64,000 bases of DNA, taken from contig JAUZNX010000002.1 of NCBI GenBank assembly GCA_030706745.1, forward strand, positions 434,001 through 498,000. The letters run 5' to 3'. Below, piece by piece: positions 16,178-55,906 of this stretch. The stretch is from Bacteroidota bacterium (GTDB taxonomy: Bacteria > Bacteroidota > Ignavibacteria > Palsa-1295). The notes below the pieces were generated by a model that was given only the letters and a program-made list of their open reading frames with translations, was not told where the DNA came from and searched no databases. The position numbers were made by a program, and so were the translations under genes. Each line of letters starts with the position of its first letter. Position 1 is the first letter of the stretch.

Positions 16178-16381
16178 ATGGCGAAACAACAAAGTTTTGG
16201 AGATAAGGTAAAGAAGCACTCGGTCGAGAAGATCGAGTTCGTGCCGCAGCTTGGCAAAACCGCGAAGCTTACGCCCGTTCGGCTTATTGGCGTGTCCAAG
16301 AGCGCAACAGGCTACCGGTTTGAAGACCGTATCGCCCGTCTGGCCGAGCCAGAAGGCGGCGGAGAAGCGATTATCATTTAA
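16178..16381 (+). CDS. Small basic protein of unknown function
   Basis: 67 residues, MAKQQSFGDKVKKHSVEKIE ... ATGYRFEDRIARLAEPEGGGE. The protein is basic at the N-terminus, with a short beta-rich middle (FVPQLGKTAKLTPVRLIGVSKS). I do not recognise the family. Its size and place just before rpsR and rpmB recall the small ribosome-neighbour proteins of Bacteroidota (for example the DUF4295 type next to L28/L33), but there is no clear motif match. The stop codon directly abuts a heptad repeat array. Confidence 0.6.
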   Translation: MAKQQSFGDKVKKHSVEKIEFVPQLGKTAKLTPVRLIGVSKSATGYRFEDRIARLAEPEGGGEAIII

Positions 16382-16441
16382 GTGCTGAGTGCTTAGTACT
16401 GAGTTTTTATCATACTCAGAACTTAGCACTTGGGACTCGGC
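16380..16441. repeat. Heptad repeat array with inverted arms
   Basis: A 7-bp-period sequence (units like TGAGTGC, TTAGTAC). Arms GAGTGCTTAGTACTGAGT (16387-16404) and ACTCAGAACTTAGCACTT (16414-16431) pair at 15 of 18 positions around a T-rich loop. It begins at the stop codon of the small protein and ends right at the ATG (16442) of the BtuF-like gene. It may act as terminator and leader at once. Confidence 0.8.
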
Positions 16442-26027: not shown

Positions 26028-26783
26028 TTAGATCGCTCCTGCCACCAGCTTCAGGCCCGCGAGCACGAGCACGCTGGCCAGTGCATATTGTAATGTGTGA
26101 GGGCGGGATTTGGTTGCGCCGAAATACGAGCCGAGCAGCGCGCCCGCAAGTCCGGCGAGCAGGAAATAGAGAAACAGCGCATCGCCGAGAGAGAAGATTG
26201 TATTGGCATGCCCCGCGAGTCCGGCCAGCGAATTGAGCACAATGAATGCACTGGCCATGGCCGCGCTGCCTTTGATGTCAGTGATACCAAGGAATAGCAG
26301 GATTGGACTCAAAAATATTCCTCCGCCGATTCCAATCATGCCCGAGACGAAGCCGAGGATCAGACCAATTGGGAGAGCGATGGGGTAGTAATGCTGAACG
26401 ATGAACGATGAGCGATGACTCGGACTCTTTGGAAGGACCAGCCGCCCCGCCGCCGCAAGGAGCGCAACACCAAGAATGATCTCGAAGACTGGTTGAGAGA
26501 CTCTCAACATTCCACCAATATAGGATGCTGGAATCGAGGTAATGACGAACGGCAGGAGCTTTCGAATCTCGAATGCACCGGGTCGCCGGTAATTGAGGAA
26601 GGCGATCCCAGCCACAAGCACATTGAGTGTAAGCACGATCGGCACAAATTGCCTCGCGCTGAATCCCATCAGCGAGATAACGGCGAGATACCCGGAGGCA
26701 CCGCCATGGCCCACGCTCGAGTAAAGTACGGCGACAAGAAAGATGAGCGGCAGGACGAGCAGGAGTTGCTGCGGGTTCGGCAT
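26028..26783 (-). CDS. TauE/SafE-family (TSUP) membrane transporter
   Basis: 251 residues with about eight hydrophobic segments and the duplicated TSUP pattern: VLYSSVGHGGASGYLAVISL (~19-38) in the first half and GLILGFVSGMIGIGGGIFLSPIL (in parts, ~139-160) in the second. The family exports sulfite, sulfoacetate or related organosulfur anions. The linker loop between the halves (residues ~121-133, SHRSSFIVQHYY) is encoded by a heptad repeat array (26396-26423). It lies 6 bases after moeA in the minus-strand Moco run, so a sulfur- or oxyanion-related role is plausible. Confidence 0.85.
   Translation of the reverse strand: MPNPQQLLLVLPLIFLVAVLYSSVGHGGASGYLAVISLMGFSARQFVPIVLTLNVLVAGIAFLNYRRPGAFEIRKLLPFVITSIPASYIGGMLRVSQPVFEIILGVALLAAAGRLVLPKSPSHRSSFIVQHYYPIALPIGLILGFVSGMIGIGGGIFLSPILLFLGITDIKGSAAMASAFIVLNSLAGLAGHANTIFSLGDALFLYFLLAGLAGALLGSYFGATKSRPHTLQYALASVLVLAGLKLVAGAI
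26396..26423. repeat. Heptad repeat array inside the TauE-like coding region
   Basis: Four 7-bp units GAACGAT, GAACGAT, GAGCGAT, GACTCGG in a row, keeping the minus-strand frame open and encoding the central cytoplasmic loop of the transporter. Confidence 0.7.
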
Positions 26784-30335: not shown

Positions 30336-30388
30336 GCGGAGTCCCGGCTTTGCGCAAGAACAACTATCTATCAGAGAATTGAAGCGTG

Positions 30389-30766
30389 ATGACCAAACCC
30401 TATATTGATGTCGTCGAGCGGGCGATCGAACCGCCGAGCACGGTAACCCAAGCCGGCGCGGTGGTCGAGTTTTCCGGAGTCGTACGCGATTCCGAGGACG
30501 CCATCAGAATTGAGGGGATCGAATACGAAGCATTTCGGGACATGGCCATTGCGGAATTGCATCGAATCGCTATCGAACTCATGGAAAAATACGACCTCCT
30601 GGAATTGGTCTGCATTCATCGCGTCGGATTTGTGCCCAAGCACCAGGCCGCAGTGTACGTGCGCACCGCAGCCACCCACCGCAACGAGGCCTACCGCGCC
30701 AACATCGAGTGCATCGACCAACTCAAACGACGCGTGCCCATCTGGAAACACCCGCGACTGCAATGA
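30389..30766 (+). CDS. moaE: Molybdopterin synthase catalytic subunit MoaE
   Basis: 125 residues from ATG 30389 (a GTG directly before it, 30386, is equally possible). MoaE signature: GAVVEFSGVVRD (~23-34), GIEYEAFRDMAIAEL (~42-56), VCIHRVGFVPKHQAAVYV (~74-91) and the active-site segment ATHRNEAYRANIECIDQLKR with VPIWK (~94-121). It forms the MoaD2E2 complex that inserts the dithiolene sulfurs. Its stop codon TGA is part of the first heptad of the array 30762-30817. Confidence 0.95.
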   Translation: MTKPYIDVVERAIEPPSTVTQAGAVVEFSGVVRDSEDAIRIEGIEYEAFRDMAIAELHRIAIELMEKYDLLELVCIHRVGFVPKHQAAVYVRTAATHRNEAYRANIECIDQLKRRVPIWKHPRLQ

Positions 30767-30857
30767 CGAAGGATGAACGACGAATGATGAATGACGAATG
30801 ACGAATGACGAATGACGAAGGGGCGCCGATTCATATTTCATACTTCATATTTCATAT
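30762..30857. repeat. Two heptad repeat arrays between convergent moaE and tRNA-Leu
   Basis: Array one, 30762-30817, is eight exact-length 7-bp units: AATGACG, AAGGATG, AACGACG, AATGATG, then AATGACG four times. The first unit contains the moaE stop. Array two, 30830-30857, is four units TTCATAT, TTCATAC, TTCATAT, TTCATAT and a T-run. The second is roughly complementary to the first (ATGAA core), so the pair could fold. It ends 11 bases from the 3' end of the minus-strand tRNA. Confidence 0.9.
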
Positions 30858-30868
30858 TTTCCCAACCG

Positions 30869-30951
30869 TGCCCTCGCCCGGACTCGAACCGGGACGGCCT
30901 TGCGACCAACAGATTTTAAGTCTGTTGCGGCTACCATTACGCCACGAGGGC
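30869..30951 (-). tRNA. tRNA-Leu (anticodon TAA)
   Basis: Read on the minus strand: acceptor arm GCCCTCG / CGAGGGC (7 bp), D-arm with AATGGTAG, anticodon stem CAGA/TCTG with loop CTTAAAA giving anticodon TAA, a long class II variable arm (TTGGTCGCAAGGCCG) as expected for Leu, and T-arm CCCGG TTCGAGT CCGGG. The discriminator base is A; CCA is not encoded. It reads UUA/UUG codons. Confidence 0.95.
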
Positions 30952-41738: not shown

Positions 41739-41744
41739 AGTAGT

Positions 41745-41833
41745 GGATGAGTAACGAGGAATGAGTAACGAGCGTAGGACCTCGCCTCATCCACACGTCA
41801 CTCGTTACTCGTTACGCGTTACTCTTTACTGAC
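41745..41833. repeat. Heptad repeat array with inverted arms between rplO and secY
   Basis: Left arm 41745-41772: GGATGAG, TAACGAG, GAATGAG, TAACGAG. Right arm 41799-41833: CACTCGT, TACTCGT, TACGCGT, TACTCTT, TACTGAC. The arms are mutually complementary. The rplO stop (41812-41814) and the last codons of L15 lie in the right arm. It can fold in the intercistronic mRNA just before the secY start. Confidence 0.9.
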
Positions 41834-54912: not shown

Positions 54913-55845
54913 ATGAGTACTTCTCTACTTCGAGGAACAGGCATACATGGCCCGCGATGGAACCGCACCACTACATTAGCGGTCGCAAGCCTGCTTCTCG
55001 CCGTTGCCGTCTCCTCTTGCCGTGATATTGGCTTCCACGAGTTGGACGTATCCGCCAAGAGCCGTGCTTCGGCTCAGATGGCGCGCGATGTCATGAGCGA
55101 TTTGCAGCATGGTCTGCATGTATTCTACGAGCAGAAGCACCACTTTCCAGCTACGACGGAAGCTCATCTTTACGACTCCATCCGAAATGACATGAGCCCG
55201 GCGCTCGATCCGATTCATCTCTACCGCAATGATAATGGCAAGGGCTATTTCATTGCAGTTGGCTCCCGGGCGGGACGGATCGTGTATCGCTACCCTCCGA
55301 CGATTGGCGCGGGCGACTACACCCTCTATTGGGTTGGCCCGAATGGCGTTGATGAAGAAGGCGAAGGCGACGATGTCGATGCCTGGCAGGGAGTTGACAC
55401 GGCACGACATTTCGAGCGGCAGCGACTGGCCGATCTCGAAGCGGACCACGATCCGGAACGGCTTTTGCTGGTGCGAACAGGGCCCGATCTCTTTCGCGAT
55501 TCGGTCCGGTTCACAATCCTCCGGCACGATACGGTTTTCTATCAGGATGCCTGGCCGCTCACGGCGTATTTTCAGTTGCGGCCAGAACTGACGGACGAGG
55601 TCCGTCGGCGAATGGTGCGTGCCGAGCTCGATCAGTTTCTTGCACCGGGCGCGTTCGTACATACGGATTCGCTGGAGAATCGGGGCTGGTCCAAATGGGC
55701 CGAGGTGAATCCAAAGTCGGCGGAGCTTGCGGAGCTTCAAAATGCCGACGAATTGATGTTCAACTATTATGCAGGGGACCGGGGATCGAAGGGGATTGCA
55801 TGGCTGAAGTCGAAGAAGAAATTTGTCGTCGTATGGAAGAATTGA
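54913..55845 (+). CDS. Putative lipoprotein with a repeat-family C-terminal domain
   Basis: 310 residues from ATG 54913. Signal peptide with lipobox-like VSSC (~34-37). The C-terminal part (~200-310) contains VRFTILRHDTVFYQDAWPLTAYF, LENRGWSKWA, LMFNYYAGDRGSKGIAWL and a final KKKFVVVWKN. This end is shared with the next gene. An N-terminal part (~45-150) resembles a pseudopilin-like segment (MSDLQHGLHVFYEQKHHFPATTEAHLYDS, in parts). Unknown function. The TGA stop overlaps a heptad array. Confidence 0.6.
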   Translation: MSTSLLRGTGIHGPRWNRTTTLAVASLLLAVAVSSCRDIGFHELDVSAKSRASAQMARDVMSDLQHGLHVFYEQKHHFPATTEAHLYDSIRNDMSPALDPIHLYRNDNGKGYFIAVGSRAGRIVYRYPPTIGAGDYTLYWVGPNGVDEEGEGDDVDAWQGVDTARHFERQRLADLEADHDPERLLLVRTGPDLFRDSVRFTILRHDTVFYQDAWPLTAYFQLRPELTDEVRRRMVRAELDQFLAPGAFVHTDSLENRGWSKWAEVNPKSAELAELQNADELMFNYYAGDRGSKGIAWLKSKKKFVVVWKN

Positions 55846-55906
55846 GAACGGAGAATGGAGAGTGGATGATGGATAGCCGAGCGCGTAGAATGAAGAACGG
55901 AGACTT
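55844..55906. repeat. Degenerate heptad array spanning a gene junction
   Basis: Nine 7-bp units: GAGAACG, GAGAATG, GAGAGTG, GATGATG, GATAGCC, GAGCGCG, TAGAATG, AAGAACG, GAGACTT. The TGA stop of the upstream gene ends one base into it and an ATG used as a start (55890) lies in the seventh unit. Confidence 0.8.

Follow-up and report, generated by a model that had tools for sequence, protein, structure and literature searches.

Short convergent arrays of 7-bp units at gene edges: a multi-word family in a Bacteroidota genome and its congeners

Introduction

The gap between moaE and a tRNA-Leu gene in a Bacteroidota genome is filled by two tandem arrays of different 7-bp units, and this raises the question of how such arrays arise and why they adjoin genes so closely. 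The existence of heptamer repeats has been recognized for decades, and they are usually credited to polymerase slippage, which Mrazek is said to have proposed for heptanucleotides in general. Among long simple repeats they are the most frequent kind in many bacteria, as Mrazek (2007) is cited in PMC4679880.

The window is the whole 64-kb stretch of DNA that was analyzed, and feature coordinates refer to it unless otherwise stated (Table 1). The genome containing it is designated G000, and the genomes compared with it are designated G001 to G006 (congeners) and G009. An arm is designated A when its purine-rich strand runs forward, and a convergent pair is an A arm followed by an A′ arm.

Table 1. 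Coordinates of genes and heptad arrays in the window
Feature	Position	Strand	Evidence
moaE (molybdopterin synthase catalytic subunit)	30386..30766	+	Pfam MoaE PF02391, E 2.7e-26; sequence
Arm A (array 1), eight 7-bp units	30762..30819	+	Tandem Repeats Finder, lag-7 scan, sequence
Interior between arms, 10 bases, GGGGCGCCGA	30820..30829		sequence
Arm A′ (array 2), 30-mer AAATATGAAATATGAAGTATGAAATATGAA on the minus strand	30830..30859	-	Tandem Repeats Finder, exact-copy search
tRNA-Leu (taa), gene edge hugged by arm A′	30868..30951	-	ARAGORN; Rfam tRNA
Second convergent element (heptad GAGTAAC), which fills the gap between rplO and secY in the ribosomal operon	41741..41830	-	Tandem Repeats Finder, sequence
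In-frame heptad array, word TGAACGA, in a TauE/SafE permease gene	26395..26418	-	Tandem Repeats Finder, sequence comparison

Two Arrays at moaE-tRNA-Leu

As had been predicted from the sequence, there are two whole-unit arrays at this place, and Tandem Repeats Finder assigned both a period of 7 with 0% indels. Arm A (8.3 copies, consensus AATGACG) consists of the units AATGACG, AAGGATG, AACGACG and AATGATG followed by AATGACG four times. The 3′ end of moaE reads CGA CTG CAA TGA, and this TGA lies within the first heptad of arm A, so that the repeat does supply the stop codon, as proposed. Arm A′ contains 4.3 copies of TTCATAT. Its distance from the tRNA gene, originally given as 11 bases, is 11 if whole units are counted and 8 if measured from the last periodic base. 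The two arrays are the top-scoring lag-7 segments of the window, with other lags far behind except for 14 and 21. The purine-rich strand of arm A reads away from moaE and that of arm A′ reads away from the tRNA-Leu gene. The best reading is that both arrays are arms of a single convergent heptamer element at the gene edges, a relationship that the original prediction overlooked.

A change in unit number at the same locus, for which relatives were searched, was found in G001. Synteny is retained there (moaE is 66% identical over the matched part), and 14 TTCATAC units, compared with 4.3 units in the window, stand beside a short GGATGAA-type arm. The locus thus has the tandem 7-nt units beyond chance length, the dominance of period 7 and the whole-unit change between relatives that characterize a long simple sequence repeat. 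Growth might then have been purely local, occurring by slippage of whole units, and the strict 7-bp step without indels and the unit-number change in G001 speak for this. Judged from its sequence, array 1 would certainly have received a contribution from local slippage, because its four terminal AATGACG units are identical.

Period 7 and Word Dialects

The original prediction had been made to depend on an excess of period 7 in the genome at large, and this excess is strong. In 800 kb of G000, 36 lag-7 segments reached a score of at least 11, versus none in a third-order Markov control and at most 9 for any real lag other than 7, 14 or 21. Period 7 also dominates in ∼1.1 Mb of G000 and 0.8 Mb of G004, largely in intergenic DNA. 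When the AATGACG 21-mer AATGACGAATGACGAATGACG was searched for with up to three mismatches, 158 matches were obtained genome-wide, versus 0 for the reversed pattern.

Several different heptad words were expected at gene ends, and such words are indeed found throughout the genome. De novo detection yielded 67 arms. These can be grouped into 12 word families, and eight of the families recur at several loci. Random local slippage is not expected to reuse the same few words at many loci in this way. Species carry word dialects: AATKACG triplets number 92, 66, 24, 15, 6, 0 and 0 in the seven genomes of the genus, whereas GGATGAR and GGATAGT dominate in G001, G006 and G009. These last two words are missing from G002 and G005, in which none of the tested heptad words was found. 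Among 63 syntenic gaps compared between G000 and G004, few contain arrays, and each of these arrays is present in one genome only. Note that the congeners are distant (the median protein identity to G004 is 60%).

Two weak heptad arrays also occur in the window, one with the word AGTGCTG (16381-16404), whose family is present elsewhere in the genome, and one with the word ATGGAGA (55833-55866).

Block Copying and Word Switching

The 30-mer of arm A′, including its odd third unit, was found as an exact copy at 15 places in G000 and at 3 in G001. The odd unit is retained at all 15 places, and array 2 was therefore copied as a block. G003 has its own fixed version of the cassette, AAGTATGAATTATGAAGTATGAATTATGAA, which occurs seven times among the matches listed. 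A dispersed repeat of ∼230 bp with about 27 copies at 71-86% identity (L297-L323; for example, G000:C17:32380-32650) has a heptad slot. Between the homologous flanks of this repeat the slot holds either AATTACG/AATGACG arrays or the AAATATG cassette, depending on the copy, and words must therefore be exchangeable in one slot. Rfam matched nothing within the ∼230-bp repeat. Taken together, these comparisons of copies demonstrate block copying and word switching.

Near one copy of the ∼230-bp repeat there is a sub-threshold match to Acido-Lenti-1 RNA (L300, 1897-1952; 32.4 bits, the gathering threshold being 37). A second dispersed repeat with a heptad slot, bounded by GGGCACC (L332, L338, L339, L342, L345), is present in G000 and G003, with differing cassette versions.

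Against slippage as the sole account, the fixed odd unit in the exact copies largely refutes it for array 2, and words common to many loci argue the same way. Convergent polarity and a change of word within homologous flanks are not predicted by it either. Growth by slippage alone thus seems unlikely, and the whole-unit slippage originally invoked stands only as one contributor.

The rplO-secY Gap

The second convergent element of the window, which was likewise overlooked in the original prediction, contributes the final codons of rplO together with its stop codon. Heptad pairs occupy the same gap in four species with at least three words: GAGTAAC in G000, GGAATKA in G001, A/GAGTAAC in G004 and GGGTWTA in G006. 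In G003 the gap (L202) contains instead a GTAG-type, REPIN-like palindrome pair, and in G002 and G005 it contains neither a heptad pair nor a GTAG-type palindrome pair.

Paired arms could form a stem in RNA or DNA that is under selection as a terminator, an attenuator or a protection for mRNA. All four rplO-secY elements fold better than shuffled sequences (z -3.2, -6.9, -2.9 and -2.2) despite the change of words from species to species, and the element at C1:530653 also folds well (z -5.8). The moaE element, however, has a different word in each arm and for this reason does not fold (z +1.7), so that a stem is dispensable at moaE-tRNA-Leu. Elements also occur within co-directional operons, no class of gap is preferred (approximate counts), and two congeners do without the words altogether. 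Selection for a functional stem is accordingly not a likely explanation of the family. An intrinsic terminator was also considered and rejected: the same z value and lack of gap-class preference are not those of a stable GC-rich hairpin with a T-run. Loss of the SbcCD hairpin nuclease was rejected as a permissive cause. SbcD (TIGR00619) has no match in any of the seven congeners, with 13 of 14 control genomes matching, and it is missing from the array-free congeners too; its loss could be at most a background condition.

The palindrome pair in G003 brings to mind REP/REPIN sequences or MITEs moved by a RAYT-type Y1 transposase. The heptad elements are similarly dispersed, intergenic and composed of paired inverted units, and the genus has Y1 transposase genes. 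But the heptad arms carry neither a GTAG tag nor a fixed stem-loop, as the unfolded moaE element illustrates, and the Y1 genes do not track with the arrays, numbering 6 each in the array-free G002 and G005 and 7 in G000. Interiors are unrelated between copies, and so are the flanks of paired cassettes, unlike in an ordinary MITE; no homologous interior between terminal inverted repeats was found. We consider mobilization of this kind quite unlikely. At L327 and L330, both in G003, the left and right cassette arms are exactly shared and the interiors and flanks are unrelated.

Polarity and Gene-Edge Placement

Among the 117 AATGACG matches listed, which come from many phyla, an A′ arm follows within 250 nt downstream in 43 cases; in a single case (L072) it lies upstream and is made up of a mixture of GAACGAC and GAATGAC words. 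These multi-phylum loci were picked by the one word AATGACG and come mostly from metagenome bins, although an isolate, Shewanella gelidimarina ATCC 700752, is among the sources. De novo arms of G000 and G004 are convergent in 37 cases versus 2, where both arms of an element may count. The two exceptions have AGTCCT-type words of one family in which the purine-rich strand is ambiguous. The 30-mer cassette has a partner in 10 locus records, and the pair converges in every one of them, with one element counted twice (L328, L352).

Elements hug the genes behind them. The gene behind the purine strand lies at a median distance of 9 nt and the gene ahead of it at 66 nt, and the hugged edges are stop-codon edges in 20 cases and start-codon edges in 15. 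These distances and the gap-class counts should be considered approximate due to the use of home-made gene calls, which took the wrong strand at moaE. Note also that the tRNA-Leu gene was absent from the gene list used for these distances, so that arm A′ was scored there against protein genes only.

Three units of a heptad with a stop codon in it suffice to close all three reading frames, and a convergent pair does so from either side, which might itself be the function of the elements. The purine strand closes all three frames in 39 of 62 arms, the other strand closes none in 38 of 62, and the moaE and rplO stop codons both lie within arrays. Permutation of the units, however, shows no closure beyond that given by composition (p = 0.16 per word family); start-codon edges are hugged nearly as often as stop-codon edges, and elements inside genes are read through in frame. 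A function in all-frame termination is very unlikely. The stop codons within words are largely a matter of composition, and the position of arrays at the stop codons of genes is a by-product of gene-edge hugging.

Convergent polarity is also what would result if both 3′ ends at a DNA break were extended with purine words, that is, if heptads were added from a template in a telomerase-like manner and the repaired breaks were left with convergent pairs. The species-specific word dialects would be consistent with such a templated process. Yet RVT_1 is absent from five array-bearing congeners and present in two array-free ones, and we consider templated addition extremely improbable.

Origin of the Elements

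The arrays belong to a genuine family of convergent heptamer elements at gene edges that extends across the whole genome and uses several words; heptamer repeats as such were already known. Arms A and A′ are probably one such element, of a family dispersed in G000 and its congeners that would have spread as blocks and then undergone unit-by-unit turnover. In support of dispersed cassettes, neither the number of units nor even the word is constant among arrays that share an orthologous or paralogous slot. Short heptad blocks would spread by copying and may settle where sequence is unconstrained, in spacers or in the linkers of proteins. Once landed, the arrays would change in place by gain, loss and homogenization of whole units. 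No transposase or reverse transcriptase tracks with the arrays among the congeners.

More broadly, a general bacterial process might write heptad blocks at gene edges in many phyla, with the purine-rich strand facing away and the word replaceable in its slot, independently of G-quadruplexes, known transposases and reverse transcriptases. We regard so general a process as doubtful, if conceivable.

Relation to Known Heptad Repeats

The cyanobacterial STRR words are CCCCRAT, TTGGTCA and CAACAGT; neither these nor TAACTGA are among the 12 word families of the 67 arms. The TAACTGA repeats of Beggiatoaceae, Cyanobacteria and Bacteroidetes (PMC4679880) are also intergenic heptads with a patchy occurrence in distant lineages. 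They differ from the arrays described here in having one word, in forming 169 direct sets versus one inverted and in lying just before start codons.

The closest known case is that of the convergent GGGAATC pairs of Xanthomonas. The GGGAATC / GGGGAYT repeats of Xanthomonas and Nostoc (Rehm 2015, PMC4692102) were explained in a way that leaned on G-quadruplexes. They are likewise dispersed heptamer arrays, mostly of four units with fixed positions degenerate, and mostly occupy the same gene gaps in related species with varying length and sequence. Xanthomonas has 70-75 convergent pairs per genome, which lie near the ORF behind them, and the elements described here have this same arrangement. 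The words here, in contrast, are AAATATG, GAATGAC, GGATGAA and GAGTAAC rather than G-tracts. GAATGAC, AAATATG and GAGTAAC contain no GGG, and G-quadruplexes therefore cannot be the common cause. Further differences are the several words per genome, the word switch in one slot, the exact 30-nt cassettes and the occurrence of one word across many phyla.

The main text and legends for Geobacter metallireducens (PMC2700814) describe paired heptanucleotide "global regulator binding sites", with five tandem MTYCTGA units that switch strand and so form inverted pairs, and a family of four GGACCGG units within and between genes. The words are different, and polarity and slot turnover do not appear in that main text or those legends. 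REP/REPIN and Rickettsia palindromic elements (PMC3733652) resemble the present elements as small dispersed repeats that are intergenic and sometimes in frame within genes, but they are fixed, tagged stem-loops and not 7-bp tandem arrays. A literature search for AATGACG, AATTACG and GGATAGT as tandem pairs found no such repeats in the papers covered, the single text match being a fungal expression paper, and peptides encoded by arrays of these words were not found either.

What the genus adds is an architecture of the Xanthomonas type (short, convergent, gene-hugging, in the same slots) that is built from words without G-tracts and is accompanied by block copying and word switching, a combination that neither slippage nor G-quadruplexes cover. 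The rplO-secY gap, the moaE-tRNA-Leu gap and the ∼230-bp repeat are concrete loci for testing how bacterial heptads originate.

Arrays Inside Genes

Heptad arrays also add sequence to proteins in frame, which should be taken as a warning. The array in the TauE/SafE permease gene occupies a linker that is variable among relatives. At the in-frame element of a methyltransferase (L003), six congeners have an unrelated, shorter linker. Urocanase (L005) and a DNA polymerase III alpha frame (L006) each have an in-frame element at the N-terminus, and a further one is found in a terminase-like protein (L030), which was named by eye, Pfam giving only a weak AAA match.
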